A stretch of 37,356 nt of DNA. It comes from Acidobacteriota bacterium. GTDB lineage: Bacteria > Acidobacteriota > Vicinamibacteria > Vicinamibacterales > UBA8438. This document shows, piece by piece, positions 1,557 through 23,524 of the stretch. Under the pieces are notes generated by a model. It worked only from the letters and a program-made list of their open reading frames with translations, was not told the origin of the DNA and did no database searches. The DNA lies in assembly GCA_002712885.1 (NCBI GenBank), contig PAUN01000056.1, positions 33,135 through 70,490 on the forward strand. The letters are read 5' to 3'. The translations under genes and the position numbers were made by a program. Each line of letters begins with the position of its first letter. Within the stretch, counting starts at the first letter, position 1.

Positions 1557-3548
1557 TCACGGGACAGCGAGTGCGACATACTCGCTTTCCATGTCTCCCC
1601 AGCCGACCGCGACGACGATGTACTGCTTCCCGCCCGCCATGTAACTGATTGGCGCGGCGGTGGTGCCACCGGGGAGCGCCATCTCCCAGACGCGGTCGCC
1701 GGTGGCCTTGTCATAGGCCCGGAACATCCGGCTCCCACTGCCCTCCGGCAAGAACGCGCCACCAACGTTGGCACCGTCGCCGAGGAAGACCAGGGTTTTT
1801 GTGATCAACGGGGCGACTCGACCGCCCTGCCCAAGCGGCGGCAGGTTGAGGTGCGCGATCGCCGGATGGTCACGTGGTCCGTCGCCGTTGGCGATCGTCC
1901 AGAGAATCTCACCGGCGTTGAGGTCAATCGCCACCAGACGTCCGTAAGGTGGCTTGAAAAGTGGCAGGCCCTGGGGTCCAGGAATGTGCCGCGCCCCTTT
2001 CATGACCCAGTCGACGTCTGATCGCGGGTGGTCCGACCGCCCCAACCCGACGACCGTGCCGCTGTGGACCGACGGCACATACAGGATGCCGGTCTCCGGG
2101 TCGCCCCCGGCGCCGTTCCAGTCGGTGCCGCCCACCAGACCCGGCACGACCATCGTGCCCTGGGTGCCGCCGGGACGGTCATCGATCAATGACGGCGGCG
2201 TGAAGAACGCTCCCCAGACATAGTCGTCGAGCATCGCCACCGCCTCGGCCCGCAGTTCGGGCGTGAAATCGATGAGATCGTCCAGGGTCACGCCCTGCTG
2301 ATCGTATGGAGGGGGTTTGGTTGGGAACGGCTGGGTCTCCGCATACCACTCGCCCGGGACGTCGCCGCGAGGCACCGGTCGTTCCTCGATCGGCCAGACC
2401 GGCTCACCGGTGACGCGGTCGAAGACATACGTGCTGGCCTGTTTACTGGTAATGGCGACGGCCTTGATGTCGCGTCCGCCCACCCGGATGTCGAGCAACG
2501 TGGGCGCTGCCGGGAAGTCGTAGTCCCACAGCCCGTGGTGGACCGCCTGGAAGTGCCAGACACGTTCGCCGGTCTCGGCGTCGAGACACACCAGACTCTC
2601 AGCGAACAGATTGTCGCCGGGGCGATGCCCCCCGTAATAATCGCCGGTCGGGGTCGACAGCGGCAGGTAGACGTAGCCCAGTTCCTCGTCCGCGCTGGGC
2701 GACGCCCACATGTTGGTGTTCCCGGTGTACTCCCACGACCGGCGGTCCTCGTTGAGCCCGGTCAGCCAGGTCTCGTTACCGGGTTCGCCCTCGCGTGCGA
2801 TGGTGTGAAAAATCCAGCGCTGCTCGCCGGTACGCACATCGAACCCGCGCACGTCGCCGGGCGGCATCTCCTTCATCGCCGGCATGGTGGCATTGGTGAT
2901 GTCGCCGATGGCGGACCCGACCACGATGATGTCGTTGACGACGAGCGGCGCCGACCGCCAGCGGAAACGGGTGACCACCCGGTCGTCATAGCCCTCCACA
3001 AGGTCCACTTCGCCGTCGATGCCGAAGTCCGGGTAGCGCTCGCCCGTCTCCGCGTTCAGAGCCACCAGGCGTGACCCGATGACGGCAATGACGCGGGCAT
3101 CGTCGCCACCATCGTCATCGCTCCAGTAACCGAGGCCCCGGGTCGCGAACCCGCGTGGACGTTCTTCGCCCTCCGGCACCGGGGGCGTATCGAACCAGAC
3201 CACCTCCCCGGTCGTCGCATCGAGCGCGGTCACCGTACCGAGGGGGGTGCTGATGTAGAGCCGCCCTTCCGCCATGATCGGCGTATTCTGCGAAGCGCCG
3301 GGAGCACGCAGGTCGTTGCCCTGCCGCGTCGCGTCGGGAATCGTCGATTGTCGCCAAGCGATACGAAGGTCGTGCACCGTGTCGGCGTCAATCTGATCGA
3401 GCGGGGTGTACTTGGTGCTGGCCTTGTCACTCGCGTAGGCGCGCCACTCGCCGGTCTGACCGGCGATCCCGGAGACCGGCGTCAGGAGAAACAGCGCGAC
3501 TCCGACACAAACGATCGGTAGCGCGCGAGTCATCACCGCCTTGACCAT
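1557..3548 (-). CDS. PQQ-dependent dehydrogenase, glucose-dehydrogenase-like, secreted
   Basis: Periplasmic quinoprotein beta-propeller oxidising a sugar or alcohol and passing electrons to the respiratory chain; 663 aa. The open frame extends upstream to 3635, but the ATG at 3548 is preferred: AAGGAG lies 6 nt before it and a signal peptide follows at once (hydrophobic core near residues 9-23, cleavage near GIAG/QTGEW). Family signs are the N-terminal W-R-x-Y-x-S-D-K-A-S-T-K-Y-T-P-L block (residues 35-50), repeated propeller motifs of the LDATTGEVVW and LDAETGERVW type, the GGHRPGDNLFAESLVCLD block and VHHGLWDYDFPAAPTL. These match the soluble relatives of membrane glucose dehydrogenase; the N-terminal membrane domain of Gcd is absent. 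The substrate cannot be read from sequence. It stands alone, diverging from the MBL-fold gene. Confidence 0.85.
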   Translation of the reverse strand: MVKAVMTRALPIVCVGVALFLLTPVSGIAGQTGEWRAYASDKASTKYTPLDQIDADTVHDLRIAWRQSTIPDATRQGNDLRAPGASQNTPIMAEGRLYISTPLGTVTALDATTGEVVWFDTPPVPEGEERPRGFATRGLGYWSDDDGGDDARVIAVIGSRLVALNAETGERYPDFGIDGEVDLVEGYDDRVVTRFRWRSAPLVVNDIIVVGSAIGDITNATMPAMKEMPPGDVRGFDVRTGEQRWIFHTIAREGEPGNETWLTGLNEDRRSWEYTGNTNMWASPSADEELGYVYLPLSTPTGDYYGGHRPGDNLFAESLVCLDAETGERVWHFQAVHHGLWDYDFPAAPTLLDIRVGGRDIKAVAITSKQASTYVFDRVTGEPVWPIEERPVPRGDVPGEWYAETQPFPTKPPPYDQQGVTLDDLIDFTPELRAEAVAMLDDYVWGAFFTPPSLIDDRPGGTQGTMVVPGLVGGTDWNGAGGDPETGILYVPSVHSGTVVGLGRSDHPRSDVDWVMKGARHIPGPQGLPLFKPPYGRLVAIDLNAGEILWTIANGDGPRDHPAIAHLNLPPLGQGGRVAPLITKTLVFLGDGANVGGAFLPEGSGSRMFRAYDKATGDRVWEMALPGGTTAAPISYMAGGKQYIVVAVGWGDMESEYVALAVP

Positions 3549-3650
3549 GCCCATCTCCTTCTCGTTGAGCGCTCTTGACGAGCACGTCGTGCCGAGCATG
3601 TTCGCACCGCGCGCAGGGGTCAAGGCCGGATTCACAGAGCGCCCTACCGG

Positions 3651-3679
3651 TCGACTCCCTGGCTCCCGACCGGTATAGT
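3651..3679 (+). promoter_or_regulatory. Sigma70-like promoter of the MBL-fold hydrolase gene
   Basis: TCGACT (3651-3656), a 17-bp spacer and TATAGT (3674-3679) fit a housekeeping promoter (4/6 and 5/6 matches). Transcription would start near 3686, giving a leader of about 30 nt to the ATG at 3718. It lies in the divergent gap shared with the PQQ dehydrogenase. Confidence 0.5.
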
Positions 3680-3717
3680 CACAATCACATCTACGTTCGT
3701 CGCTGAAGGAGTTGAAG

Positions 3718-4665
3718 ATGAAACGCAGTATCTACTTGGCAGGCCTCACGGCCCTAGGCCTCATCGCGACCATGGTCACTTTCGAGGCCCGACAAGACCG
3801 GGCGAGCCTCACCGTGCATGAGATCGCCGACAACCTGTATATGCTGGCCAATGCCCCCTCCGTGGAAGGCATGGGCGGTGGCGGTAACACCGCGATTTTT
3901 GTAACCGACGGCGGCGTCACCTTGGTCGACACGAAGATCAAAGGCTACGGCCAGGACATCCTCGCCGCGGTACGCGAGCTCACCGACAAGCCGGTGACGA
4001 CGATCATCAACACCCACACGCACTGGGACCATTCGGGCTCGAACCCGGAGTTTCCGGATTCGGTCAACTTCGTGGCGCACGAGAACACCCGCGGGCACAT
4101 GGCGAGCCAGGATTGTGATGACGGCGCCGGGTTCCAGGGAGGCTCGATCAAGAACTGTGAATCGTTCACAGGTGCCAACGTGACCTACCTGCCGAAAACG
4201 ACCTTCTCCGATACGCTGACGCTCTTCAGCGGAGCGGACCAGATCGACCTGTATTACTTCGGTCGCGGCCACACCGACGGCGACATCTTCGTTGTCTTTC
4301 GCGCCGCACGCGTGATGCACTCGGGCGACATGTTCGCGCGCCGGGGGCTGCCTTTCCTCGACGTGCCGAACAGCAACGGAAGCGCCGTCGAGTTCGGTGA
4401 GACCCTCAAGCGCGCGATCAGTGGGATCTCGAACGTCGATACCGTGATTCCCGGACACAACCCGATCCCGCTCCCATGGAATGACTTCGTCAAGTACGAG
4501 GGCTTTTACAACGACCTGGTGATGAAGGCGCAGCAAGGGAAAGCGGCCGGTCGTTCGGTCGACGACGTCGTGTCGTCGTATCGCGTGCCGAGTGAGTACA
4601 GCAACTATGCAGCGCCCGAGGATCGTGTCCGGGCTACCGTGCAGTATCTGTTCGACGGACAGTAG
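3718..4665 (+). CDS. Secreted metallo-beta-lactamase-fold hydrolase
   Basis: Binuclear zinc hydrolase, 315 aa, substrate unknown. The ATG at 3718 is chosen over the in-frame TTG at 3712 because GAAGGAG (3705-3711) sits 6 nt before it. A signal peptide or N-terminal helix covers residues 1-22. The metal site is complete: HTHWDH with H100, H102, D104 and H105, then GRGHTDGD with H185, HSGDMF with D204, and VIPGHNP with H247. The gene is convergent with qhpB (16 bp apart) and divergent from a PQQ dehydrogenase. Similar hydrolases next to quinoprotein genes have been named quinoprotein relay system zinc metallohydrolases; whether this is one is inference from position only. Confidence 0.88.
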   Translation: MKRSIYLAGLTALGLIATMVTFEARQDRASLTVHEIADNLYMLANAPSVEGMGGGGNTAIFVTDGGVTLVDTKIKGYGQDILAAVRELTDKPVTTIINTHTHWDHSGSNPEFPDSVNFVAHENTRGHMASQDCDDGAGFQGGSIKNCESFTGANVTYLPKTTFSDTLTLFSGADQIDLYYFGRGHTDGDIFVVFRAARVMHSGDMFARRGLPFLDVPNSNGSAVEFGETLKRAISGISNVDTVIPGHNPIPLPWNDFVKYEGFYNDLVMKAQQGKAAGRSVDDVVSSYRVPSEYSNYAAPEDRVRATVQYLFDGQ

Positions 4666-4681
4666 GAAACGGCGAACGTCC

Positions 4682-5770
4682 CTAGTTCGGCACCACGAAC
4701 ATCTGTGACATGTCGCCGGGGAGCGTGATGGTGCGCAGGTAGCGGTAGGTCGAAGCTTCGTACAGGTCGATCGTGTCGCCGGCCTGGTGGATGTAGAGGA
4801 TCTGGCCGTTGGTACTGGGCGTAACGGCCATCCGCGGTCGCCCGTCAATGGCCTGGCGACGCTCGAGCCGCCGCCCCTCCAGGTCGAAGGTCCAGAACTC
4901 GTAGTGCCCGATCTCGCTGAGCAGCGCATGGGCCTTCCGGCGGCCCGGGGCCAACGCGAATGACCCTACGGGCTCGGACGGACCGAGCGTGTAGAAGTCG
5001 ACATCCCGCTCGGCCAAATTGATGCGCGCGATGCCCATCAGGCTGCGATTCTGCACCTGATCCCGTACCCGGAAGATACCGGAGTAGAACCCGGGTTCTT
5101 CATTCGGATCGTAGCGAAATCCGAAGTTGAACCGCCCGACTCCCCCTTCGTCGAGTTGGGACAGTTCCCACCGCTCGACCTCCTCGAATCCGGTGGTCTC
5201 CAGGGCCACTATCTCGTCGCCAAAGAGGTAGAGCAGATCGCCGCTCGGCGAGAACAGCATGTTCACACTGACCCGTTCCTCGCCGTCCGGCCACGGGATC
5301 TCGCGCAGCACCTCGTGGGTGGCGAGGTCGACCTGCACCAAAGCACGTGGCGCGATCTCAAATCTGTCGATCTGCTTCGTGGCAGTATCGATCAACAGAA
5401 TGATGGACGAGTGATCCGGGGCGGCGCGGAAACTCCGGATACGAACCTTGGTCTGTCCTTCGCTCAACGTCAGCGTGTCGATGGTGCGGCGGGTCGCGAC
5501 GTCCATCACCTCGAGCTGCTCGAACGTGCGGTCTCGCATGTAGAGCCGGGTCCGGTCCTCGGACAGCGCCATGCTGCTGGGCGGCCCGTCGAGCGTCATC
5601 GTGATGTCATCCACCACCTGTTCGGTCGCCTCATCGACGACAAAGACACGGCCCGGGTACCCGCCGACGTAGATAGTGCCAGTGCCGCCGGTGAGGTCCG
5701 GGGCGGTCTGGGCGGCCACACTTCCAGCGAGCGTGACGCTGCCGACGAGCAGGAAGAAGAAAAATCGCAT
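4682..5770 (-). CDS. qhpB: Quinohemoprotein amine dehydrogenase beta subunit (beta-propeller)
   Basis: Periplasmic seven-bladed propeller subunit of QHNDH, on which the CTQ-bearing gamma subunit sits and which forms part of the active-site pocket. 362 aa from the ATG at 5770, which directly precedes a signal peptide (MRFFFFLLVGS, cleavage near VAAQ/TAPD); an in-frame GTG at 5803 would add 11 residues and cannot be excluded. YncE/YVTN-type blade motifs recur: TIYVGGYPGRVFVVDEAT, LYMRDRTFEQLEVMDVATR, ILYIHQAGDTIDLYEAST. Last gene of the qhpG-A-D-C-B block, 45 nt after the qhpC stop (12 nt if the GTG is used). The fold alone would not give the name; the call rests on the fold, the length and the position next to an unmistakable qhpC. 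Synonym in Pseudomonas: peaD (from memory). Confidence 0.88.
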   Translation of the reverse strand: MRFFFFLLVGSVTLAGSVAAQTAPDLTGGTGTIYVGGYPGRVFVVDEATEQVVDDITMTLDGPPSSMALSEDRTRLYMRDRTFEQLEVMDVATRRTIDTLTLSEGQTKVRIRSFRAAPDHSSIILLIDTATKQIDRFEIAPRALVQVDLATHEVLREIPWPDGEERVSVNMLFSPSGDLLYLFGDEIVALETTGFEEVERWELSQLDEGGVGRFNFGFRYDPNEEPGFYSGIFRVRDQVQNRSLMGIARINLAERDVDFYTLGPSEPVGSFALAPGRRKAHALLSEIGHYEFWTFDLEGRRLERRQAIDGRPRMAVTPSTNGQILYIHQAGDTIDLYEASTYRYLRTITLPGDMSQMFVVPN

Positions 5771-5815
5771 CGACTGGTCCGGATAGCGCTGGTGCCCTGA
5801 CACACTCAGCCCACG

Positions 5816-6172
5816 CTACGGAAAGATGAGGTCGATCTTCCGCCAATCCTTCTGGGCAGCGGCGCACTTGCTCGTCCAGTCCGGCGCGTGGTTGAGCTGG
5901 TCTGGCACATGCGCCGGCCAATAGCATCCGAGGTGGCAATCGAACAGATCCCGTTCGACCGGCTGACACAACCCGGCCGTGCCGCCATTGCGGTCCGCCT
6001 CCCAGCCCGGCTGGAACGCCAGGGAGCACCCGAGCGGGATGTGGGGCCCTTCCGGCTGCTGGGGTGGACCGGAGCCCTGCTGCTGCAGCGCGACGACATC
6101 GCCCGCAGGCGCGGGGTTGGCGGCGGCCGCGATCCGGGCGGCTTTCCGATTGATAGGGGTCAGATGCTTCAT
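5816..6172 (-). CDS. qhpC: Quinohemoprotein amine dehydrogenase gamma subunit, CTQ precursor
   Basis: 118-aa ribosomally made precursor of the catalytic subunit carrying cysteine tryptophylquinone. In the Paracoccus gamma subunit the thioethers are Cys7-Glu16, Cys27-Asp33 and Cys41-Asp49, and CTQ is Cys37-Trp43. Here the residues fall at C49/E58, C69/D75, C83/D91 and C79/W85, with identical spacing throughout. The motifs GLCQPVERDLFDCHLGCYWP and AHVPD also match the family. The first 40 or so residues form a non-hydrophobic leader (starts MKHLTPINRKAARIAAA) with no Sec signal, as expected of a peptide recognised by QhpD and QhpE. Placing the N-terminus by homology predicts a leader of about 42 residues against 28 in Paracoccus. 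Oddities: Tyr84 where Paracoccus has Trp, and an additional Cys103. Starts 7 nt after qhpD. Confidence 0.96.
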   Translation of the reverse strand: MKHLTPINRKAARIAAAANPAPAGDVVALQQQGSGPPQQPEGPHIPLGCSLAFQPGWEADRNGGTAGLCQPVERDLFDCHLGCYWPAHVPDQLNHAPDWTSKCAAAQKDWRKIDLIFP

Positions 6173-6179
6173 GGCGTTC

Positions 6180-7616
6180 TCACGAGTCGAACCGGTTCAG
6201 AAAACGGGGACTCCGTTCGGCGATCTCGCCGTAGATACGCAGGCAGATATCGGTCCACTCGCGGATCCAGTCACAGTAATGCAAGTTCGGATGCGTGGTC
6301 GTGCCGTAGCGCGTATGGGCCTCATGGTAGCACCCCCCTGAACACAGCGGCCGAGCCCAGCAGGTGTGGCAATCGGTCTTGTGCGCAATGTGATTGCGCT
6401 CGAGAAAGGCCTGCTGCGCCTCCCGGTCAAGCCCCTCAGTCACGCTGCCGAGATTATGTTCGTCCGACCCGGCGAAACGATGGCACAGCGCGACGTCACC
6501 CCCCGTGGCCACGCCGATGAGCCCGAGTCCGGCGCCACACGGATACGCCTTGCTGACGCCCTTGTGGATCTCCCCCAAGGTTTCGCTGACGTTCGAAAAC
6601 CCGTGGTGCTGACCGGCCAGCGCGGCGCGAAGAAACTCATCGGCCAACGCTTTAAACTGCGTGACCATCTGGTCGAACCCCGAGCCGTCGAGGGCGTGGT
6701 CGCGACCGGGTGACGTGGTGACTGGGGCGAACCCCACTTCCTGGAACCCGATCTCTTCGGTCAAATGCTGATAGATACCGAGGATGTCGTTAACTTGCGA
6801 GGTGAGCGTCACCCGGGCGCCGATGGGCCGGCTGCGATGCCGTTGGAGCAGCTCGCGGACCCGCGGCAGCATCACGTCGTAGCTGCCGCTCCCGTCATGA
6901 AACACGCGAAATCGGTTCTGCATGTCGCGCGGTCCATCAACGGAGACGGTCACCGAGATGTCTTCCTGGGCCAGGAACTCGATCATCTTGGTGGTGAGCA
7001 GCGTCGCGTTGGTCGTGAGGTTGAATTCGACCCGTTTGCCGTGCGCCTCAGCCTGGGCCTTGGCATATGGCACGGCCCGGCTCAGCACCGGATAGTTCAT
7101 CAAGGTCTCGCCGCCGAAGAAGCTGACGTGGACCACCTCGACCTCACCCGACTCGCGAAACAGCAGGTCGATACTCTTCCGCGCCGTCTCGTCAGTCATG
7201 AACTTGGGCTGCGCGCCGTTGGTGGTATCGACGATCTTGTCTTCGCTATACTCGTAGCAGTAGCCACAACTCAGGTTGCACTGGTTCGTGACGTTGAGGA
7301 CCGCCGTCGTGAGGGGAAACGACTCGACCGGGGTCAGCGGAATGATGGCCGGCATCTCCGGCACCGGTTCGGCGGCGGGCCGGACCGCGTGGATCTGCTC
7401 GAGCTCGGTCAAGAGGGCATCGAGGTCCATCGCCGGAAACTCCGGCGACACGCGGGCAATCAACTCGGCGCGGTCGACCGGCTGGTCACCCAGCGCGTCG
7501 ATCAAGGCGCCCGCCGGGGCATCCAGCGCAAAGACGGCCGCGCTGGGGACCAGATACAAATACCGCTGGTCGGCGGCCTCGAACGCATGGTGTTCTCCGA
7601 GGCAAAGCATGGTCAT
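6180..7616 (-). CDS. qhpD: Radical SAM/SPASM peptide maturase forming gamma-subunit thioethers
   Basis: Cytoplasmic radical S-adenosylmethionine enzyme, 478 aa, the usual size for QhpD. It installs Cys-to-Asp/Glu thioether cross-links in the QhpC precursor. The radical SAM cluster motif is C113-x3-C117-x2-C120 (NQCNLSCGYCYEYS), followed by FFGGETLMN (residues 166-174) for SAM binding. The C-terminal SPASM/auxiliary-cluster region holds C360, C378, C416, C419, C425, C429, C448 and C458, including DCHTCWARPLCSGGCYHE. Residues 1-100 have the peptide-recognition-like make-up typical of RiPP maturases. Its ATG overlaps the qhpA stop (ATGA) and is preceded by GTGGAG 5 nt upstream, so translation is coupled. 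Synonym peaB (from memory). Confidence 0.95.
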   Translation of the reverse strand: MTMLCLGEHHAFEAADQRYLYLVPSAAVFALDAPAGALIDALGDQPVDRAELIARVSPEFPAMDLDALLTELEQIHAVRPAAEPVPEMPAIIPLTPVESFPLTTAVLNVTNQCNLSCGYCYEYSEDKIVDTTNGAQPKFMTDETARKSIDLLFRESGEVEVVHVSFFGGETLMNYPVLSRAVPYAKAQAEAHGKRVEFNLTTNATLLTTKMIEFLAQEDISVTVSVDGPRDMQNRFRVFHDGSGSYDVMLPRVRELLQRHRSRPIGARVTLTSQVNDILGIYQHLTEEIGFQEVGFAPVTTSPGRDHALDGSGFDQMVTQFKALADEFLRAALAGQHHGFSNVSETLGEIHKGVSKAYPCGAGLGLIGVATGGDVALCHRFAGSDEHNLGSVTEGLDREAQQAFLERNHIAHKTDCHTCWARPLCSGGCYHEAHTRYGTTTHPNLHYCDWIREWTDICLRIYGEIAERSPRFLNRFDS

Positions 7617-9295
7617 GGACGCTCCACTGCGGTCGGATCCCAGCGCAGGTAGTTCGGCACGGTCACCAGCAGGTGAGCCCGCGCGCGGAGCGTGCGCGAC
7701 CCCGCCGGATAGGTGGCCACGACCCAGACGTCGCCCACATTGTTTCGGTTCCCGTTGCGCTCCGCGTTTGGTCCGTCGAGGGCCGGGGTAAACCGGCCCT
7801 GCCCGTCGATGGCGCCGACATACCGGAGGTCGTCGTCTCCGAACGTCGCCGCGTATTCTTCGAGGGCCCAGGTCGCGTCGACCAGCCCCAGATCGAGGTC
7901 GTCGTCGGTGTTCGCTTCACCGTCCGGCCCATCGTGATACGCCCGCGCTTCGAATTGTTGAAACTGCTTCGGCACGCGGACCCCACCGACCCGGGCCATG
8001 CCGGCATCAGGCGTCACCGCGATCCGGGAGACCGTGTCGTAGACCATCAGGGCATCAGCGAGCGAGGTCTGGTCGAGAAAGAGGTCTCGACGGCCGACCC
8101 GCGCATCGCCATCGACCCGTACCTCGGCCGTAACGAGACCCGCGGTGGCACTGACGACACGGAGCACCTCCAGCCCCGGGCCAAGGTCCAGGTCCGCGGT
8201 GGTCGCGGAAGCCAGATGCTCGCCGTACAGCTGCAGCGTGACCGTCTGCCCGACCTGAATCGACGCGGGGTGCACGCCGGTCACGACCGGGGCAGTCCCC
8301 ACGCGCTCGAGGGCGATGTCGAGGCCGATCTCGTCGTAGCCGCCCGTGAACCAGCGCCCCTGCATCGACTGCCAGTCGCGGTCGACGAACATCACCTCGC
8401 GGAGGCCATCCGTATCGTTGGCGCCTTCGAGCGACCGGCCTCGCCACTGAAACCCGGTGTAGACGATGGCCTGTCCGACCCTGGTGACACGACGTCCATC
8501 TCGCGCGTAGACATAGCTGGTGTCGGTCGTGAATTCGTCGTCGGCACCTGGCGTCGGGGTGATGGTGACCTGACCGTAGACGGCGCCCACACCCGGCGCA
8601 TGGCCACGCAGGGCCCAGATGCCCGCGATCCGCGGAGCACGCATCGTAGCCGACCATGCGGACCACTCCGGAGACTCGAGCGGGAAACGCTCGCTGAGAT
8701 GCTCCACCGCATGATCAACCGGCTGGGGTTCATCGTTCTCTCCCGACCGTCGGAACGCCTGAAAATCTGTGAATGGATAGTAGCCCCTATGCATCGCGGT
8801 CACGAGCCGCCATTCCTCGGCGGTCCGGCGCTGGCTCACGACCCGCCCCATCGAGTGGCAGGTGGTGCAAGTCTGCTTGACGTCGGCGTCCTCGTACGCT
8901 TGGTCATCCGACCGACGCTCGGCCTCGAACGCAGCTGGACCGGCTTCTTCGGGAGCCAAACCAAGGTTGTTGGCCAGGTACCGGACGACCTCACGCGCCG
9001 TCTCGGGAGCGATCGTCAGATCATTCAGCATCACCATCCTGCGGATGGTCTGCTGCCAGCCTTCGGGCGTGGTGCGCCGAAATGAGATGCGAGACAGCCG
9101 ACCAGCGTCGTCTGGGGCATGGCATGACCCGCACGCCTCACGGACGGTGGCGTCCGGGATCGGGATGCCCGACTCGTCGGCCTCCGCCGCCGCTGCGGTT
9201 CCCTGGGCTGCAGCCATCGACGGCGTCACGGTCACGAGCCCCAGCCCAACGACCAGCAGGCAGTGCAGACGAATGGCAACGGGTGGCAGGCGCAT
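7613..9295 (-). CDS. qhpA: Quinohemoprotein amine dehydrogenase alpha subunit, dihaem cytochrome c
   Basis: Periplasmic electron-transfer subunit of QHNDH, taking electrons from CTQ through two haems c to an external carrier. 560 aa from the ATG at 9295, just before a signal peptide (MRLPPVAIRL start, cleavage near AAAQ/GTAA); the frame is open up to 9502, but that extension does not look like protein. Haem motifs are CGSCH (C55, C58, H59) and CTTCH (C143, C146, H147). Domains in order: haem domain (about 48-205), beta-barrel domain (about 220-320, APRIAGIWALRGHAPG onwards), an Ig/IPT-like domain (about 325-405, GVHPASIQVGQTVTLQLYG) and a last beta domain to 560. This is the four-domain plan of the family. 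The stop overlaps the qhpD start. A 128-nt gap with a hairpin separates it from qhpG. Confidence 0.94.
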   Translation of the reverse strand: MRLPPVAIRLHCLLVVGLGLVTVTPSMAAAQGTAAAAEADESGIPIPDATVREACGSCHAPDDAGRLSRISFRRTTPEGWQQTIRRMVMLNDLTIAPETAREVVRYLANNLGLAPEEAGPAAFEAERRSDDQAYEDADVKQTCTTCHSMGRVVSQRRTAEEWRLVTAMHRGYYPFTDFQAFRRSGENDEPQPVDHAVEHLSERFPLESPEWSAWSATMRAPRIAGIWALRGHAPGVGAVYGQVTITPTPGADDEFTTDTSYVYARDGRRVTRVGQAIVYTGFQWRGRSLEGANDTDGLREVMFVDRDWQSMQGRWFTGGYDEIGLDIALERVGTAPVVTGVHPASIQVGQTVTLQLYGEHLASATTADLDLGPGLEVLRVVSATAGLVTAEVRVDGDARVGRRDLFLDQTSLADALMVYDTVSRIAVTPDAGMARVGGVRVPKQFQQFEARAYHDGPDGEANTDDDLDLGLVDATWALEEYAATFGDDDLRYVGAIDGQGRFTPALDGPNAERNGNRNNVGDVWVVATYPAGSRTLRARAHLLVTVPNYLRWDPTAVERP

Positions 9296-9408
9296 ACGTA
9301 ACGGCTCCAGTCGTAGAACCTGCCCTTTGTAGCACACGTCCCGTAGAAGCGGAGAGGAATTCGCGCCAAGCAAGCCGCGCACAGTGCGGCTCACGGCCGC
9401 GGAGACTT

Positions 9409-9421
9409 GGGGCGCAGCCCC
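9409..9421. repeat. GC hairpin just after the qhpG stop
   Basis: Read on the minus strand, GGGGC-TGC-GCCCC follows the qhpG stop codon by two bases. It is a 5-bp stem with a 3-nt loop and no T-tract. The same core appears just after the TonB-receptor gene at 27444-27458. It could reduce read-through from qhpG to qhpA or protect the 3' end of the mRNA. Confidence 0.45.
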
Positions 9422-9423
9422 AT

Positions 9424-10947
9424 CTAAGTGATAACCAGCGCCCCCTTGGCCAACAGCACCGACAAGGCCCCCAGAAAGTCGGGCAAGCTGACCGGGGGGC
9501 ACCGCCGAACATACGCCTCGAAGAGGTCCGGCACCTGCTCATACTCAGGGGCGAGTTCCACCAGCCGCACCAGATCGATATCCCGCAGGAACCGGATGCC
9601 ATGACCGTCGGCTGGCCAGGTCGGGAGGACGAGCCGCTCTTCGAGGACCACCTCCCGGGTGGTAAGCGCCGGCCTCGCTTCGATCCGGAGCCTGTCGCCG
9701 CGACGCAATCCGATCTGGCGTGCTCCACGAAGCGCCTCGAAGGCGGCGAGCACGGCTGCATCCTCGCGCAGCCGGGCGATGTCGACATCCGCCGCCGGTT
9801 CTGGGCCCGCTGGGTCCCCGGCGCCTGCGCGTCCTGTCCAGAACGGGTGCAGGTGACGCGCGGCAGCTTCGGCGAAGAAGGTTGTCGACTGCCGGACGGA
9901 GGCGTCGTGAATCTCCCGCTCCCGCGTTGTAAACAGATCGAGGGCCACACCGGCGAGCGAGACGTTGGTCAACGAAGTGTGGACGACGACCGCCGCCAAC
10001 CACGCCGACGCGAGCGCCTTCTTGACGCCGTAGGACGACAGGGGGTCGATGAACGAGGCCGCGTCGCCCACCAGCAGGACGCCCGGACCACCGCAGACGT
10101 CTGCGTGGTACAGGGATGCGTCGCAGCCCCACGGGACCGTGTTCCGGGTCGCGCCCTCGAGCAGACCACGCAGTGCCGCCGTCTTACCGATCTCACGTTC
10201 GTATCGGGAAATCACGCCGCGATCGCCCCCCAAGTCCGTGGTGCGAGGGTCGACCATGACCGTGACGTAGCGTCGCAGTGGGGTGACCGGCACCGACCAC
10301 GCCCAGCCATCCGCATAGGTCTCGACCAGGGTGTGACTGGCATCGGCGAGGCCCCAGCCATCCGGCCGCGTCCAGGTCGCCGCCAAGGCGAGCGTCGTCT
10401 GGGTGGGGTCCGCGACCCGGTAGCCACGTCGAGCCACCACGCCGGTCCGGCCGGAGCAATCGAGCACGAAGGAGGCCTGCACCTCGTGGCGACTCTGGTC
10501 ATCGGTGCCGTACTCGACGGTGGACACCGCGGGACCAGGGCGACCGTTCGCTGACGCGAGCCGTACGTCGCGCACGAGCGCGCCCCTCACCACCTGGGCC
10601 CCGGCCGAGGCCGCGAGCCGCAGCAACAGTGCGTCGAAGTCGTGCCGCACCACCTGCCACCCGGTGGCCCCGTCGACGAACGCGGCCGTCCGCGTGGTGC
10701 CCTCACCCCACCACACCGTGTTGCCGGTGCTGGTCAGGAACCCGCCATTGTTAATGGCGTCGGTGGCGCCGAGCAGGTCGAACAGCTTCTCGCAACTGGG
10801 TGGCAGCGATTCGCCCAGCGACCGCGTGTGGTCGACCGTTCGTGTCAACAACCGAACGGAGTGCCCCCACGAGGCCAGCAACCGGGCCGCGGCGGCCCCG
10901 GCCGGTCCACCCCCAATGATGACCGCGTCGAACGGTTCGCTGACCAC
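9424..10947 (-). CDS. qhpG: FAD-dependent monooxygenase for CTQ tryptophan hydroxylation
   Basis: Flavin monooxygenase of the tryptophan-halogenase-like/PHBH fold, 507 aa. In the Paracoccus system QhpG adds oxygen to the tryptophan of the cross-linked gamma peptide, preparing it for CTQ formation. FAD-binding features: N-terminal GGGPAG (12-17) in DAVIIGGGPAGAAAARLL, a conserved arginine/GES region (RSLGESLPP, 42-50), VLDCSGRTGVVARR near 161-174, and the second flavin motif GDAASFIDPLSSYG (294-307). No in-frame ATG lies upstream; the start is a GTG at 10947. It heads the minus-strand qhp block and diverges from qhpF. Other flavin halogenase-like enzymes could look similar; the qhp context decides the call. 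Confidence 0.9.
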   Translation of the reverse strand: MVSEPFDAVIIGGGPAGAAAARLLASWGHSVRLLTRTVDHTRSLGESLPPSCEKLFDLLGATDAINNGGFLTSTGNTVWWGEGTTRTAAFVDGATGWQVVRHDFDALLLRLAASAGAQVVRGALVRDVRLASANGRPGPAVSTVEYGTDDQSRHEVQASFVLDCSGRTGVVARRGYRVADPTQTTLALAATWTRPDGWGLADASHTLVETYADGWAWSVPVTPLRRYVTVMVDPRTTDLGGDRGVISRYEREIGKTAALRGLLEGATRNTVPWGCDASLYHADVCGGPGVLLVGDAASFIDPLSSYGVKKALASAWLAAVVVHTSLTNVSLAGVALDLFTTREREIHDASVRQSTTFFAEAAARHLHPFWTGRAGAGDPAGPEPAADVDIARLREDAAVLAAFEALRGARQIGLRRGDRLRIEARPALTTREVVLEERLVLPTWPADGHGIRFLRDIDLVRLVELAPEYEQVPDLFEAYVRRCPPVSLPDFLGALSVLLAKGALVIT

Positions 10948-11001
10948 CCGCGCATTGTGTCCCGTGTCGCGACGATGGAGCCAGCCATGCGGCTTTCCAC
11001 A

Positions 11002-11047
11002 TACAATCCGATCCGACCTCCAGGCTCGCTCCTGACGAGATCGGATC
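11002..11047. promoter_or_regulatory. Divergent qhpG/qhpF control region with inverted repeat
   Basis: The 106-bp gap between qhpG and qhpF holds GATCCGA (11010-11016) and its inverted copy TCGGATC (11041-11047), 24 bp apart. The right arm lies inside the smaller palindrome AGATC-G-GATCT. TACAAT at 11002-11007 could be a -10 box toward qhpF, but no good -35 box is 16-18 bp upstream. The repeat is a candidate operator. No regulator gene (the AraC-type qhpR of Paracoccus) is in the window. Confidence 0.35.
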
Positions 11048-11053
11048 TGCCGT

Positions 11054-12907
11054 GTGATCGATCCGCACTTCCGCCGCGCTTTGACCTACCTGACGCCGTA
11101 CTGGGGACGACTGACCCTGGTGCTGGTGCTGAGCCTGGTCTCGACGGCAACGTCGTTGCTGATTCCGCTGCTCTCGCAGTGGCTCATCGATGACGCGATC
11201 CTTGGGGCAGACCCGGGCGCCCTGCGCCTCGTGGTGCTGTCGTTTGTCGGCACCACGGTGCTCGGGTTCGTGCTCAACGTCTGGAGCGGGCTCCGATACA
11301 CGCGGGTCTCGGCCGACATCCTCTTCGACATGCGGCTGGCGCTCTACCGACACCTGCAAGCGCTGTCGCCGCGCTTCTACGCGCGGACCCGGTTCGGCGA
11401 CATCATGTCGCGGCTGAACACCGACATCGGCGAAATTCAGCGCGTGGCGGCCGAAGTGGTGCTGGCCTGGGTGGGCAACGTCCTGTTCCTGCTGGGCGCC
11501 GTCGGCATGCTCGCATACCTCGACATGCAGCTCTTCCTGGTCGGCATCGCCCTGCTGCCCCTCAGCCTGTGGGCGTTGGTGCACTACCGTCGTCGCCTCG
11601 AAGGACGCGTCGCCACCCTGCGCGATCGCAGCGCCGACATCGGCAGCTTCCTCATCGAGACCCTGCAGGGCGTCAAACTGGTCGTCACGTCCAACGCCCA
11701 GCCGCGCGAGGTGGCGCGGTTCCGGGAACGCAACGCCCGCTTCATCGACGCACTGATGGCGATGCAATGGACCAGCTATCTGTCCGGCGGGTTGCCTGGA
11801 GCGGTGCTCTCTGGCGGCTCCGCGCTCGTGTTCTTGTACGGAGGGCTCCGCGTCATCGACGGCACGCTCACGCTGGGGACGCTCGTGGCGGTCATGGCCT
11901 ACCAGATGCGGTTGTTCGGGCCGGTGCAGGCCCTGATGGGGCTCTATACAAGTCTGGCGACGGTGCGGGTCTCCCTACGGCGGGTCCATGAAATTCTGGA
12001 TGTCGCGCCGGAAGTGGTCGAAAGCGCTACGCCCGTCTCTCTCTCCGCCGTGCGTGGCGAGATCCAGTTGGACGATGTCACCTTTTCGTTCGATCGCGGT
12101 GCGCCGGTGCTGGAGCATGTCAGCGTGTGGGTCGCGCCGGGCGAGTGCCTCGCGATCGTCGGACCGAGCGGCGGCGGCAAGAGTACCGTCGCGGACCTGT
12201 TGCTGCGTCTGGTCGACCCCGATGCGGGGTGCGTTCGGTTGGATGGACACGACCTTCGGACCTTGCGACTGGCGGAACTGCGGACCCACGTCGCGCTGGT
12301 CGACCAGGAGCCGTCGGTATTCCACGCCTCCGTCGCTGACAACATTCGCTATGGGCGGCCCGACGCCAGCGACTCGGCGCTGGAGGCGGCCGCGCACGCC
12401 GCCGGCCTCGACGCGTTCATCGCGACGTTGCCAGACGGCTTCGAGACCACGCTGGGGGAGCGAGGCGCCGCCTTCTCGGCCGGAGAGCGTCAACGCGTGG
12501 CGGTGGCCAGAGCGTTGCTCGCGGACCCGACCGTGCTCGTGCTCGACGAAGCGACCGCGGCGCTCGACCCCCAGTCAGAGCGGAAGGTCATCGACGGCTA
12601 CGAGGCCGTCATGCGGGGGCGCACAACAATCCTCATCACCCACCGGGCCTCGGTGGCCAGCCGGGCCGACCGGGTCGTGGTGCTGGACGGCGCGCGGATT
12701 GTCGAAGAGGGAACGCCGGCCGACCTCTTGACACGATCGGGCCGGTTCGCCGAGCTCTTCGCCGTAGATGAGGATGGCTCCAGCGATCCGCCTCGGTCAC
12801 TGACGGAAGCCGGACATCACCTGGCCGCCGAGGCGATCCCCGCGGCGCCGACGACCGGTCCGTCGGCGGCAAAGATCTCGCCATCGTCCGAGACGAACAG
12901 CGGGTGA
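11054..12907 (+). CDS. qhpF: ABC exporter of the QHNDH gamma subunit
   Basis: Inner-membrane half-size ABC exporter (MsbA/type I layout), 617 aa; in Paracoccus QhpF is needed to move the matured gamma subunit to the periplasm. Residues 1-320 form the six-helix transmembrane domain (first helices near 13-35 and 50-75). The nucleotide-binding domain shows Walker A GPSGGGKST (370-378), Q-loop LVDQEP, signature FSAGERQRVAVARAL, Walker B VLVLDE (D498, E499) followed by the D-loop ALDPQSE, and the switch histidine in LITHRAS. A 40-odd residue tail rich in Ala, Pro and Ser follows the domain. The start is a GTG at 11054 with a weak ribosome site. The stop overlaps the start of qhpE (TGATG), so the two are translationally coupled. 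Confidence 0.9.
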   Translation: MIDPHFRRALTYLTPYWGRLTLVLVLSLVSTATSLLIPLLSQWLIDDAILGADPGALRLVVLSFVGTTVLGFVLNVWSGLRYTRVSADILFDMRLALYRHLQALSPRFYARTRFGDIMSRLNTDIGEIQRVAAEVVLAWVGNVLFLLGAVGMLAYLDMQLFLVGIALLPLSLWALVHYRRRLEGRVATLRDRSADIGSFLIETLQGVKLVVTSNAQPREVARFRERNARFIDALMAMQWTSYLSGGLPGAVLSGGSALVFLYGGLRVIDGTLTLGTLVAVMAYQMRLFGPVQALMGLYTSLATVRVSLRRVHEILDVAPEVVESATPVSLSAVRGEIQLDDVTFSFDRGAPVLEHVSVWVAPGECLAIVGPSGGGKSTVADLLLRLVDPDAGCVRLDGHDLRTLRLAELRTHVALVDQEPSVFHASVADNIRYGRPDASDSALEAAAHAAGLDAFIATLPDGFETTLGERGAAFSAGERQRVAVARALLADPTVLVLDEATAALDPQSERKVIDGYEAVMRGRTTILITHRASVASRADRVVVLDGARIVEEGTPADLLTRSGRFAELFAVDEDGSSDPPRSLTEAGHHLAAEAIPAAPTTGPSAAKISPSSETNSG

Positions 12908-13602
12908 TGACCGACAGGCCGATTCGCGTGGCCGTGATTGACAGCGGCGTGAACGCCACCCACCCGCACATCGGTGGCGTGGCGGGAGGCGTCGCCATCG
13001 CGTCCGACGGCTCGACCCACCCTGACTATCTCGACCGGCTTGGACATGGGACCGCGGTGGCGGCCGCCATCAAGGAACGCGCGCCCGGGGCTGAGTTATT
13101 CTGCGTGAAGGTGTTTCACCGCGACCTCACCGCCACGATCGCGGCGCTCATCGCCGCCATCGACTGGTCCGCGGGCCAGCGGGCGGATCTGATCAACCTC
13201 AGCCTGGGCACGTCGAACCCCGACCACGCCGCCGGGTTGCGGGACGCCGTAGAGCGGGCCACTGACGCCGGTGCATTGCTGGTCGCGGCCGGCACGAGTG
13301 GCGGGGTGGACTACCTGCCCGGTAGTCTCACGGGCGTGGTCAGGGTCGAACTCGACTGGGCGTGTCCGCGGCTGGGGGCAACCGTGTCCGGGGAGGGCGC
13401 CGCGGCGGTGTGCGGCGCATCGGGTTACGCGAGACCGATGCCCGGTGTGTCGCCCGAGCGCAACTTGAAGGGGATCAGTTTCGCCGTCGCGAACACCACG
13501 GGTGTTCTCGCCCGAGAGCTGCGACCCGGTAGCCGAGCTACTGTGTTGACTGCTATCGAGGCCCTACGACGCGTGAGCACCGGGATCGAGCAACGCCCGT
13601 AG
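12907..13602 (+). CDS. qhpE: Subtilisin-like leader peptidase of the QHNDH gamma subunit
   Basis: Small S8-family serine protease, 231 aa, without signal peptide or prodomain, as expected for a cytoplasmic enzyme that removes the QhpC leader after cross-linking. The catalytic triad is D12 (VAVIDSG), H47 (LGHGTAVAAA) and S191 (GISFAVANTTG). The ATG at 12907 overlaps the qhpF stop; a GTG at 12904 in the same frame is less likely. The block LLVAAGTSGG has Thr where S8 proteases usually have the oxyanion-hole Asn (AAGN). At 231 aa it is much shorter than secreted subtilisins, in line with its dedicated role. Last gene of the plus-strand qhp arm. Confidence 0.88.
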   Translation: MTDRPIRVAVIDSGVNATHPHIGGVAGGVAIASDGSTHPDYLDRLGHGTAVAAAIKERAPGAELFCVKVFHRDLTATIAALIAAIDWSAGQRADLINLSLGTSNPDHAAGLRDAVERATDAGALLVAAGTSGGVDYLPGSLTGVVRVELDWACPRLGATVSGEGAAAVCGASGYARPMPGVSPERNLKGISFAVANTTGVLARELRPGSRATVLTAIEALRRVSTGIEQRP

Positions 13603-14344: not shown

Positions 14345-14806
14345 CTAGTGGCCCTGTCGGGTCAACGGGATATCGAACGTGCCATTGACGGTGATGGTGA
14401 ATGTATCGCCGACCAGGCTGTAGCTCAGCTCGTCAAGCCCGGCGACGTCGCCGTTGTTCTTGAAGCTCACGGAGTTGTCGCCGATTGCGGTCAGATTCAT
14501 CACCTGAAAGCCGTCGTACCGCGGCTCCATGCCCGGGTTCCACTGTTTGAGACGCAGCACCAGGGAATTCCCCACTTCCTCGACGACAATGAACTCCATC
14601 ATATTCATGGCCCCGTCACCATCCATCCCCCTCACCAGCGAGGCGATGGAACCACCTCTGGGCGGGGCCCAATTCTCTTCGAGACCATCGCTACTGTAGC
14701 GACCGGTCATCCAGGAGAGATCAGTGACCTTGGCCGACGGCCCCTGCGCGAGCGCGGGGACGGACACCAGGAGAGCAAGCACAGAGAGGATAAGCAGACG
14801 CCGCAT
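14345..14806 (-). CDS. Secreted DUF6265-family protein
   Basis: 153-aa exported protein of unknown function. An N-terminal signal peptide (starts MRRLLILSVLALLVSV, cleavage after ALA/QGP) is followed by the DUF6265 pattern: L-S-W-M-T-G-R (about 30-36), the ENWAPPRGGSIASLVRGMDG block (44-63), then MEFIVVEE and LRLKQWNPGM. These are lipocalin/calycin-like small barrel proteins whose ligand is not known. The ATG at 14806 is preceded by GAAGGGAAG at a fitting distance. It starts 41 nt after the DUF1552 gene and probably is the last gene of that operon. The family assignment is by motif recall. Confidence 0.7.
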   Translation of the reverse strand: MRRLLILSVLALLVSVPALAQGPSAKVTDLSWMTGRYSSDGLEENWAPPRGGSIASLVRGMDGDGAMNMMEFIVVEEVGNSLVLRLKQWNPGMEPRYDGFQVMNLTAIGDNSVSFKNNGDVAGLDELSYSLVGDTFTITVNGTFDIPLTRQGH

Positions 14807-14847
14807 GGCACTTCCCTTCAGAGTAGAGGAACGAGAAAACGAGTCCT

Positions 14848-16179
14848 TTACACGCCGGACAACAACGGCAACTCGCCGGTGCTGTCGCCGAATGACTCCA
14901 CGTTGACACCGAACTTGTCCAAGAGACTCACCGACAGGTTCGCCAGCGGAGTGCCCTTCGGGTAGACGAGGTGGCGATTCCCCGCCAGCCCATTCTCTGG
15001 CCCGCCAATGACGACGACCGGCACGCTGTAGTTGTTGTGGGTGTTGCCGTCGCTCATGCCCTTGCCGTAGAGAACGACCGTGCTGTCCAGCAGCGTCCCA
15101 TCGGCTTCCGGAATCGACTGCAGTTTGTTCAGGTAGTACGCAAGGGTTTCGACGTGATAGGTGTTCAGCTTCGAGAAGTCTTTCATCTTCTCCGGATTGT
15201 TGCCGTGGTGCGACATGGAATGGTGCGCCTCCGGCAAGCCAATCTCGTTGTAGGCACGATTGATGTTTTCGCGCGCCATCATGAACGTCGTGACCCGGGT
15301 CACGTCCGCCTGGAACGTCAAGACCTGCAGGTCGAACATCAGCTCGGCGTATTCCCTGAACGTGTCTGGCACCCCGACCGGACGTTCCGGGAGATCGAAG
15401 TCGCTGTTGGTCGACTCGGCCCGGGCGATGCGCTGTTCCACGTCGCGAATCGAGCCGAGATACTCGCCGAGCTTGGCCCGGTCCGACCCGCCCAGCTTGT
15501 TCGAGAGCGTCGCGATCTCCTGCGACAGGCCGTCGAGAATACTGCGGTCTTCCTGCACGCGCACCGCGCGCTCCTCAGCAGTGTCCCCACTGCCAAACAA
15601 CCGCTCGAACACGAAGCGCGGGTTCGTTTCCGCCGGCAGCGGCATCGTGGGGCTCTTCCACGCCATCGAGTTCATATAGGCGCAGGCGTAACCGTGGTCG
15701 CAGGCGCCCACGACATCGTTCCGATCCACCGACACTTCCAACGACGACAGCTTTGAGTCGCGGCAGATGCGCTCGGCGATCAGTTGATCGACGGTGGTGC
15801 CGGCCTGCACATCCGCACCCTCGGTCTGCTTCGGATGTACCGAGCTCATGAACGCGGGAGCGGCGCGGGGGTGCTGACCGCCGGAGTCGCCCTGGTCCGT
15901 CGCCGGGAAGTTGTCCAGGCCGGTGAAGACGAGCATCCGATCCCGGTAGGGCTCCAGCGGGGTCAGGGTCGGCGAGAGCTGGAACCCGACCCCCTCAGTG
16001 GGCGGCGTCCAATCGAACATGTTGGCACCATTCCCAACGTAGATCGCCGCGAACCGCGGCGTCCCCGGAGCCCGAGCCGACAGGGCCGGCACCATCGCAT
16101 CGAGGAACGGTAAGGCCAGCGTGGCGCCCATGCCGCGAAGGAACGTCCGTCTCGGTAACGCCATCTTGGTGAGTACCAT
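14848..16179 (-). CDS. DUF1552 protein, Tat-exported
   Basis: 443-aa protein of the DUF1552 family, nearly always found beside a DUF1592 protein in Acidobacteriota, Planctomycetota and Verrucomicrobiota; biochemical role unknown, fold related to sulfatase/phosphatase-like DUF1501 proteins. A Tat signal is plain: P-R-R-T-F-L-R-G with the arginine pair at residues 10-11, then MGATLALPFLDAMVP. Family motifs include FAAIYVGNGANMFDWTP, FTGLDN, GGQHPRAAPAFMS, HHSMSHHGNNPEKM and VLYGKGMSDGNTHNNYSVPVV. The ATG at 16179 is chosen because the Tat signal follows directly; the frame is open up to 16266. It starts 34 nt after the DUF1592 gene, in the same operon. Confidence 0.88.
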   Translation of the reverse strand: MVLTKMALPRRTFLRGMGATLALPFLDAMVPALSARAPGTPRFAAIYVGNGANMFDWTPPTEGVGFQLSPTLTPLEPYRDRMLVFTGLDNFPATDQGDSGGQHPRAAPAFMSSVHPKQTEGADVQAGTTVDQLIAERICRDSKLSSLEVSVDRNDVVGACDHGYACAYMNSMAWKSPTMPLPAETNPRFVFERLFGSGDTAEERAVRVQEDRSILDGLSQEIATLSNKLGGSDRAKLGEYLGSIRDVEQRIARAESTNSDFDLPERPVGVPDTFREYAELMFDLQVLTFQADVTRVTTFMMARENINRAYNEIGLPEAHHSMSHHGNNPEKMKDFSKLNTYHVETLAYYLNKLQSIPEADGTLLDSTVVLYGKGMSDGNTHNNYSVPVVVIGGPENGLAGNRHLVYPKGTPLANLSVSLLDKFGVNVESFGDSTGELPLLSGV

Positions 16180-16213
16180 GAACAACAACCTTTCAGAGAT
16201 TCTGCACCAGCAA

Positions 16214-22466: not shown

Positions 22467-22572
22467 GTTTCCGGGCGAGGCGTTCGTCTGGCCAGGCGCA
22501 AGGAGGGAGCAGCCAGGCGGGCTGTGACCGACGCAGTAACGCCGCCAGACGGACGCCTCGCTCGGAAACCTA
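22464..22572. repeat. 109-bp palindromic element between convergent genes
   Basis: The 28-bp arm at 22464-22491 and the arm at 22545-22572 are inverted copies with 26 of 28 positions matching. Between them is a second, smaller hairpin (CAGCC-AGGCG-GGCTG), so the single strand would fold into a long stem with an internal stem. The outer ends supply the TAG stop codons of both flanking convergent genes. It may work as a bidirectional terminator, but the length and near-perfect arms look more like a REP/MITE-type mobile palindrome. Confidence 0.75.
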
Positions 22573-23505
22573 AAGCACCGCTGGGACCCGCACCAGCAGG
22601 TAGGTGATGTGTCCCCCCTCGGGCACCAGGTACCCGTGGGGCGTCGCGGCCGGGATGTGAAGCATGTCCCCAGCGGCTACGGGATACCGCGTCCCGCCGG
22701 CGATCCCTGAACCGAACGTCCCATCCCGATCGAGCATCTCGCCGCCGACCAGCAACTCCCCCGCCCCGCTCTTCACGAACACCAGGTCAATGATGTCATC
22801 GTGAATCTCTGGACGCCCGTCGGCGTCGCGATGGATGAACCGGAAGCGATGGGACCGTGTCGGACTCCCGAAATCGGCGAGCGTTTCGCGGGCGGACCGA
22901 TCGGGTCGGATTCTCGTGGCCAGCGACGCGTCTCGGCGCGCCAGATCGTCGGCGCCCCACCGCACGAAGCCGGGTGGTTGTAAGTCGAGAACAGGCGCGT
23001 CGTCAGGGATCACACCCCCGGCGAGCAGCGCGGGAATGCGCACGAGCACGTACGTGACGTAACCTTTCTCAGGCACCAGATAGCGGTGCGGGGTATCGGC
23101 CGGAATACGCAGAATGTCGCCTGGGCCAACGATGTGCCGCACACCGCCGGCGATGTCAGTGCCGGTGTATTCGCCATTCTCGCCGCCGGAACTGTCGACC
23201 AGATCGCCGCCCACGAGCAACGTGGCCGACCCGCTGCAGATGTAGACGACATCGTCGATGTTCGCATGCTGCTCAGGCACGCCGTCCGCGTTCCGATGGA
23301 TGAGTCGGAAGCGATGGGACCCACTAGGGTCACCGTATTCCGCGAGCGTCTCGCGGGCCGAATGATCGGGGCCCACACGCGCGGACAGGGCCGCGTGCCG
23401 CCCCCGCAGATCGGCCGCGGTCCACTTGACGAAACCAAGCTCCTCGGTCTGCAGGGCTGGGAGCGCGACCGCCGCCGCGAGAATGAACCGAAGTGACGTC
23501 GTCAT
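22570..23505 (-). CDS. Exported tandem-cupin protein
   Basis: 311-aa protein with a short signal peptide and two homologous cupin domains (about 25-160 and 180-311), clearly an internal duplication: FVKWTAADLRGR and FVRWGADDLARR, SARETLAEYGDP and SARETLADFGSP, SHRFRLIHRNADG and SHRFRFIHRDADG, IPADTPHRYLVPE and IPAATPHGYLVPE. Candidate metal histidines are H80 and H140 in the first half and H235 and H290 in the second. The substrate is unknown; bicupins include oxygenases, isomerases and decarboxylases. AAAGGAG 6 nt before the ATG at 23505 fixes the start. It lies 19 nt after the VOC gene and forms a two-gene unit with it. Confidence 0.82.
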   Translation of the reverse strand: MTTSLRFILAAAVALPALQTEELGFVKWTAADLRGRHAALSARVGPDHSARETLAEYGDPSGSHRFRLIHRNADGVPEQHANIDDVVYICSGSATLLVGGDLVDSSGGENGEYTGTDIAGGVRHIVGPGDILRIPADTPHRYLVPEKGYVTYVLVRIPALLAGGVIPDDAPVLDLQPPGFVRWGADDLARRDASLATRIRPDRSARETLADFGSPTRSHRFRFIHRDADGRPEIHDDIIDLVFVKSGAGELLVGGEMLDRDGTFGSGIAGGTRYPVAAGDMLHIPAATPHGYLVPEGGHITYLLVRVPAVL

Positions 23506-23524
23506 GACCCGCTCCTTTGACGAT

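Follow-up and report, generated by a model that had tools for sequence, protein, structure and literature searches.

A cluster of seven qhp genes in an Acidobacteriota genome (assembly GCA_002712885.1, contig PAUN01000056.1, positions 33,135 to 70,490; 37,356 nt, hereafter the window) probably encodes a quinohemoprotein amine dehydrogenase (QHNDH) with a cysteine tryptophylquinone (CTQ) cofactor, together with its full maturation set. We put this reading, in which the enzyme belongs to an Acidobacteriota branch of the family, at about 0.9 on the strength of family, structure and fold matches for QhpA, QhpB, QhpC, QhpD, QhpE and QhpG, and of similar gene sets in acidobacterial relatives.

A plain QHNDH cluster would be one more member of a known system, and it is the variation that is of interest. 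The family splits into two deep branches, and the studied enzymes come from one of them. In the second, which is mostly acidobacterial in this sample, the gamma subunit has an additional, fifth cysteine that is conserved, and some members have apparently swapped the O2-using flavin hydroxylase for a U32-type pair. If either a fourth thioether or U32 hydroxylation proved true, the accepted route to tryptophylquinone cofactors would change, and the latter would add a protein substrate for U32 hydroxylases, so far characterised on ubiquinone and RNA. Labels of L plus a number denote loci and those of G plus a number genomes of the comparison set; the window lies in G000:C63 of an 82-contig, 3.83 Mb assembly.

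The qhp cluster of the window

Seven open reading frames (ORFs), none interrupted, lie side by side at 4682-13602, qhpG-A-D-C-B running along the minus strand and qhpF-E along the plus strand; their families matched, bearing out the gene set and layout given in an earlier note on this DNA:

9424..10947, minus strand: qhpG, flavin adenine dinucleotide (FAD) monooxygenase of 507 aa, predicted peptidyl-Trp dihydroxylase, matching NF049967
7613..9295, minus strand: qhpA, dihaem alpha subunit with a signal peptide; the ORF is open back to 9502
6180..7616, minus strand: qhpD, radical S-adenosylmethionine (SAM)/SPASM thioether maturase, matching TIGR03906
5816..6172, minus strand: qhpC, gamma-subunit precursor of 118 aa with the CTQ site, matching PF08992, NF037958, 1jju_C and 1jmx_G
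4682..5770, minus strand: qhpB, divergent beta-propeller beta subunit; the ORF is open back to 5803
11054..12907, plus strand: qhpF, ATP-binding cassette (ABC) exporter, predicted mover of processed QhpC to the periplasm, matching PF00664 and PF00005
12904..13602, plus strand: qhpE, subtilisin-like leader peptidase, matching NF049966
10948..11053, no strand: 106-bp gap between the divergent qhpG and qhpF, presumed from the layout to be a promoter region

The earlier note had staked its reading on a family match for the 118-aa peptide, and on QhpA and QhpD grouping with QHNDH proteins rather than with unrelated cytochromes or maturases. The peptide scored 110.2 bits with PF08992 (cut-off 25) and 120.6 bits with NF037958 (cut-off 50), and all eight residues of the four predicted cross-link pairs are present; across 110 distinct QhpC sequences C7/E16, C27/D33, C41/D49 and C37/W43 are invariant, with one X at position 27. 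QhpA reached 482.9 bits with TIGR03908 (cut-off 274.35), also matched Pfam alpha-subunit domains II-IV and the haem-binding domain, aligned with 1jmx_A at 2e-80 and carries the haem motifs CGSCH and CTTCH, as expected of the dihaem subunit that had been proposed; its start at 9295 (560 aa, followed directly by the signal peptide) is more likely than that at 9502. QhpD scored 567.7 bits with TIGR03906 (cut-off 453) and keeps all ten cluster cysteines, three of the radical-SAM and seven of the SPASM type, which agrees with the maturase named previously. The QhpA and QhpD trees agree on the main groups.

QhpE passed the cut-off of NF049966 narrowly (166.8 bits against 165), while for QhpF, with no NCBIfam model above cut-off, the ABC domains and its operon position beside qhpE, as in relatives, suggest an MsbA-like exporter. 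For QhpB, whose start is likely at 5770, where the signal peptide begins, a profile of 18 rows matched 1jmx_B (1.6e-21) and 1jju_B (4.2e-18) over nearly its whole length; these ranked second and third, slightly below the surface-layer propeller 1l0q_A, the best stretch of which is short. An AlphaFold model of QhpB (predicted local distance difference test (pLDDT) 85.5, predicted template modelling score (pTM) 0.82) had 1jju_B (E 4.6e-20) and 1jmx_B (E 8.5e-19) as its two best PDB folds. These profile and fold matches argue that QhpB is probably the beta-propeller beta subunit, despite the missed curated cut-off.

Several observations weigh against the identification. QhpB reached 55.8 bits with TIGR03907 against a cut-off of 223.2, yet spanned nearly the full profile. 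QhpG scored 215 bits with NF049967 over residues 9-476, short of the cut-off of 240, and a single-sequence PDB search placed halogenases on top and QhpG itself (7ctq_A) eighth; it also carries Ser and Asn at the mutation-sensitive Arg47 and Arg70. The flavin monooxygenase claimed earlier is favoured by its best family and operon position, yet on these scores and residue changes it stays a candidate QhpG. A Pfam scan of 25 window proteins revealed no AraC-type regulator QhpR, the rest of the genome not having been searched; a protein at 22570-23661 combines a cupin match with one to an AraC-type ligand-binding domain but has no helix-turn-helix match. qhpR is counted as a member of the qhp operon, whose arrangement is described as variable (PMC7876137), and a copy may sit in another part of the genome. 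Finally, the source is a draft assembly, 94% complete with 5.6% contamination. The sub-threshold scores of QhpB and QhpG might be taken as signs of a decayed or inactive cluster. This is very improbable, however: the frames are uninterrupted, the haem, SPASM and cross-link residues are intact, and related genomes hold copies at 76-97% QhpD identity.

The window shares with the Paracoccus denitrificans and Pseudomonas putida systems (1JJU, 1JMX, 7CTQ) the same structural and maturation genes, the four cross-link pairs, the 28-residue leader, a dihaem alpha and a propeller beta subunit. It differs from them in a gamma subunit with Cys61 accompanied by Asp72 and Asp36, a mature QhpC N-terminus 14 residues longer, a 507-aa QhpG in which the Arg residues contacting QhpC are altered, a QhpB far under its family cut-off, qhpF and qhpE transcribed away from the other genes, and the lack of a recognisable qhpR among its proteins. 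The fifth cysteine, the altered QhpG contact residues and the divergent QhpB are departures from the Paracoccus type that the earlier note did not contain.

What the present analysis shows is the set of genes, their families, the residues for cross-linking, both haem motifs and the agreement of the trees; every chemical step, localisation and the substrate class below are carried over from work on Paracoccus and Pseudomonas. QhpD would introduce the thioethers Cys7-Glu16, Cys27-Asp33 and Cys41-Asp49 into leader-bearing QhpC, and QhpG would add two oxygens to Trp43, in the cytoplasm. QhpE would then cut off the 28-residue leader and QhpF export the peptide. In the periplasm, the gamma peptide, dihaem QhpA and propeller QhpB would assemble and Cys37-Trp43 would become CTQ, formation of which has been proposed to end in that compartment (PMC7876137). 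The resulting enzyme would deaminate amines and pass electrons out via its haems.

Phylogeny and distribution of the acidobacterial branch

The acidobacterial setting proposed earlier was confirmed, the nearest QhpD copies (76-97% identical) coming from metagenome-assembled genomes (MAGs) titled Acidobacteria or Vicinamibacterales. A CTQ cluster in an acidobacterium is in fact usual, since PF08992 was found in 39/100 near relatives and in 29/396 Acidobacteriota; within the window's own family it occurs in 19 of 28 genomes, its own included. The corresponding counts were 7/398 in the phylum of the Acetobacter genome G101 and 7/337 in its class. The system is not rare, and the qhp operon has been reported in more than 1300 bacterial species (PMC7876137).

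Trees of QhpD (65 rows), QhpA (41) and QhpB (41) separated the same three groups; these were quick trees, without bootstrap and midpoint-rooted, with several long rows and many inner forks unresolved. The Paracoccus/Pseudomonas/Cupriavidus type forms one clade, with Shimodaira-Hasegawa-like approximate likelihood ratio test (SH-aLRT) values of 99 for QhpD, 100 for QhpA and 98 for QhpB. The acidobacterial locus L141 groups with this studied clade in all three trees, and the window falls in an Acidobacteriota branch with sphingomonad and Acetobacter copies nested inside. Recent import from Proteobacteria is suggested by the proteobacterial origin of the studied clusters and by the presence of several relatives on plasmids; we nevertheless consider it highly unlikely, as the proteobacterial copies studied so far make up a separate clade, the sphingomonad and Acetobacter copies nest in Acidobacteriota, and the guanine-plus-cytosine content of the window is even, at 60-70%.

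Novosphingobium, Acetobacter and Acidobacteriia clusters resemble the window in a gamma subunit with Cys61, Asp72 and Asp36 and in sharing its QhpD, QhpA and QhpB branch, but differ in having a short QhpG, from ORFs of about 330-410 aa, that in the six tested scored 50-68 bits with NF049967; in sphingomonads and Acetobacter it lies between qhpB and qhpF. MAGs titled Woeseiaceae (L007) and Bordetella parapertussis (L057) also carry acidobacterial-type qhp clusters; these titles look wrong, because their gamma-subunit coordinates equal those of G094 and G975, listed under the window's order and phylum.

A fifth cysteine in the gamma subunit

The features of QhpC and QhpD on which this section draws are as follows:

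6089..6172, minus strand: QhpC leader, 28 residues ending DVVA, aligning with the described 28-residue QHNDH leader; QhpE would cut before Leu29
5864..5866, minus strand: codon of the fifth cysteine (precursor Cys103, mature position 61)
5831..5833, minus strand: codon of Asp72 (precursor Asp114), candidate acceptor for Cys61
5939..5941, minus strand: codon of Asp36 (precursor Asp78), adjoining the CTQ cysteine
6243..6245, minus strand: codon of QhpD Cys458, an extra cysteine of the window's branch

Mature position 61 is Cys in 93/110 distinct QhpC sequences, with Ala or Val taking its place in the remaining 17; this Cys is absent from the studied Paracoccus/Pseudomonas clade. Asp72 accompanies it in 93/93 rows (2/17 of the rows without Cys61), Asp36 in 91/93 (0/17 of the others), and Asp67 in 92/93 plus one X (15/17 without). 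Within the Cys61 rows 26 of 72 columns are invariant, Cys61 and Asp72 being as constant there as the known cross-link residues; seven columns (F11, G22, W57, C61, D67, D72 and P76) are invariant solely in these rows. On the maturase side, QhpD position 458 is Cys in 93/100 distinct pairs with Cys61, and in 93/96 of those whose gamma subunit has both Asp36 and Cys61; it is Cys in none of the 17 pairs without Cys61, all of which have Gly. The original papers on QHNDH in the Journal of Biological Chemistry, the Proceedings of the National Academy of Sciences and Biochemistry may already mention a fifth cysteine.

Neither QhpA nor QhpB offered a conserved disulfide partner for Cys61: in QhpA, Cys columns are conserved only at the four haem ligands, and in QhpB half of the non-canonical rows have a Cys pair at 301/321; the window QhpB has neither this pair nor any Cys downstream of its signal peptide. 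An AlphaFold model of QhpC made to place residues 36, 61, 67 and 72 had a mean pLDDT of 41.8 and was not used. Masses computed for the mature gamma subunit of the window are 9916.0 for the unmodified peptide, 9910.0 for three thioethers, 9937.9 for three thioethers and CTQ, and 9935.9 for four thioethers and CTQ.

One explanation is that QhpD ties Cys61 to Asp72, or else to Asp36 or Asp67, in a fourth Cys-Asp thioether. The co-occurrence of Cys61 with these acidic residues points this way, as do the lack of a conserved Cys partner, the extra Cys458 in most QhpD of the Cys61 branch, and the order of residues, since Cys precedes its acceptor in all three known thioethers and would do so again from 61 to 72. 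QhpD is also kin to PapB, the ranthipeptide maturase of freyrasin, a related radical SAM/SPASM enzyme reported to make six Cys-Asp thioethers (PMC8172795); the substrate of PapB is a peptide product, however, that of QhpD an enzyme subunit, and the window QhpD scored 270.1 bits with NF047865, under the cut-off of 340. Against a fourth thioether, the pattern reflects few evolutionary events rather than independent covariation, Cys458 is missing in 7/100 distinct Cys61 pairs, and the QhpC model yields no geometry, positions 61 and 72 being far apart if the segment is helical. Asp36 as the only acceptor is further weakened by its absence from both QhpC types of G1147, which bear Cys61 with Gly or Ala at position 36. 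Cys61 is also present, with Gly36, in L141, the sister of the studied clade, and it may for this reason be ancestral and have been lost once. We therefore hold the fourth thioether only tentatively and think it somewhat improbable.

Alternatively, Cys61 may be a free or structural thiol, with Asp36, Phe/Tyr42 and the loss of Asp12 and Asp39 marking another substrate range or another QhpG docking. Against this, an exported protein would not normally be expected to keep a free Cys unchanged in 93 sequences. In its favour, Asp12, Asp39 and Trp42 are each present in 17/17 gamma rows without Cys61, as opposed to 3/93, 1/93 and 2/93 of those with it; Arg47 and Arg70 are lost in QhpG of the Vicinamibacteria rows, and QhpB is strongly divergent. 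Asp12 and Asp39 form part of the acidic face opposite Arg47 and Arg70 of QhpG, and the lost acidic residues of QhpC and basic residues of QhpG coincide with the QhpC-QhpG contact modelled in the cited work (PMC7876137). There, Arg47 and Arg70 of Ps. putida QhpG are placed at the channel entrance, and are thought to bind acidic QhpC residues; their mutation left almost no activity and/or weakened the binding of QhpC (PMC7876137). The published numbering fits P. nitroreducens (L099) by letter at the tried positions between 14 and 111, later ones being shifted, and on it the window QhpG keeps the equivalents of Glu42, Trp74 and Arg89, with Arg47 replaced by Ser, Arg70 by Asn and Glu84 by Gly. With both arginines replaced, docking of QhpC must differ, and we read the changed contacts as a probable re-fitting of the two partners with function kept. 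A thiol without a cross-link is, on balance, about as probable as not.

Predicted hydroxylase types among qhp loci

NF049967 fires in 100/100 relatives and 14/14 controls, so in genome-wide searches only high scores or operon position count. Among 90 loci that span 10 kb or more and hold both qhpC and qhpD, we found a short QhpG in 49, a long QhpG in 30, a U32 pair in five, neither in the stretch in six, and both in none. Three of the U32 loci (L156, L176 and L153) have the order A-D-C-B-U32a-U32b followed by F-E, F not being detected in L153. The remaining two, L142 and L177, from one genus (g232), read D-C-U32a-U32b-F-E.

In about 15 kb around these last two (L142 at 6016-12401 of its stretch in G1147, and L177 in G1175), no alpha subunit, beta subunit or QhpG was detected, and they present a QHNDH gamma-like peptide in another context; the second locus of G1147, L141, has qhpA, D, C and B.

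U32b matches PF01136, and that of L142, L153 and L156 reached 88-95 bits with UbiU (cut-off 440) and also matched the prephenate-dependent tRNA hydroxylase TrhP; U32a matched nothing in NCBIfam, and nothing significantly in Pfam. Cys residues are conserved in the U32 proteins of three pairs. In these relatives (not in the window) U32b thus resembles UbiU in its matches, its conserved Cys and its pairing with a second protein, but differs in scoring under the UbiU cut-off, in a partner without a family and in its place inside qhp operons. UbiUV is reported to hydroxylate ubiquinone precursors without O2 and to be able to take over from UbiIHF, which are flavin monooxygenases (PMC10470549); the oxygen is reported to come from prephenate (PMC11574389). 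By sequence and gene order, a UbiU/UbiV-like U32 Fe-S pair may replace QhpG in several acidobacterial members, L142 and L177 included, and hydroxylate the CTQ Trp without O2, a swap that would mirror that of UbiUV for UbiIHF in ubiquinone synthesis; we give this proposal even odds. A literature search for U32 together with tryptophylquinone or with quinohemoprotein returned no match.

A short-QhpG profile scored at most 38 bits in the five U32-pair genomes (G1039, G1065, G1147, G1175 and G1272), as compared to 261-427 bits in three genomes possessing a short QhpG, and the long-QhpG model stayed below 100 bits in four of the five. U32a occurred in 7/396 Acidobacteriota, all among the 29 with a gamma subunit (hypergeometric 5e-9, ignoring relatedness and assuming that the U32a and PF08992 surveys drew the same 396 genomes, as counts and listed handles suggest); at most five candidates per genome were scored. 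U32a is linked to qhp in three of the seven. The other four (G040, G044, G049 and G069) count against the proposal, holding U32a away from qhp and a linked QhpG on the qhp contig, as do the six loci with neither type in the stretch and the 183-bit, unlinked QhpG-like flavoprotein that G1039 keeps. One of the six, L014 (G102), has a short QhpG elsewhere in its genome, and absence from a locus alone therefore proves little. QhpG is present in the window, and of six U32a candidates in its genome the five that were scored gave no match. More distant U32a/U32b pairs lie off qhp at L172, L173, L174 and L175; the four genomes concerned belong to the window's order and have both a gamma subunit and a linked QhpG.

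Other arrangements of the cluster were also seen: in L178 (G1278), qhpA, C and B have no qhpD beside them, and the genome gave no match to the short QhpG; L180 (G044) is rearranged as D-C-A-B, then F, E and QhpG; and G067:C112:35455-37162 (L082, L109) holds two qhpC about 1.5 kb apart in one cluster, at the same coordinates as in the L008 genome. Beside qhpB, at 1557-4665 of the window, lie two further genes, one for a pyrroloquinoline quinone (PQQ)-type dehydrogenase (PF01011), the other for a protein of metallo-beta-lactamase fold that weakly resembles quinoprotein relay hydrolases. The latter was considered as a part of the system and rejected, being found beside qhpB in L002 and not detected in L003-L006. 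After the cluster, at 14345-20220, come DUF6265, DUF1552 and DUF1592/1588/1585 cytochrome-type proteins and an ankyrin-repeat protein.

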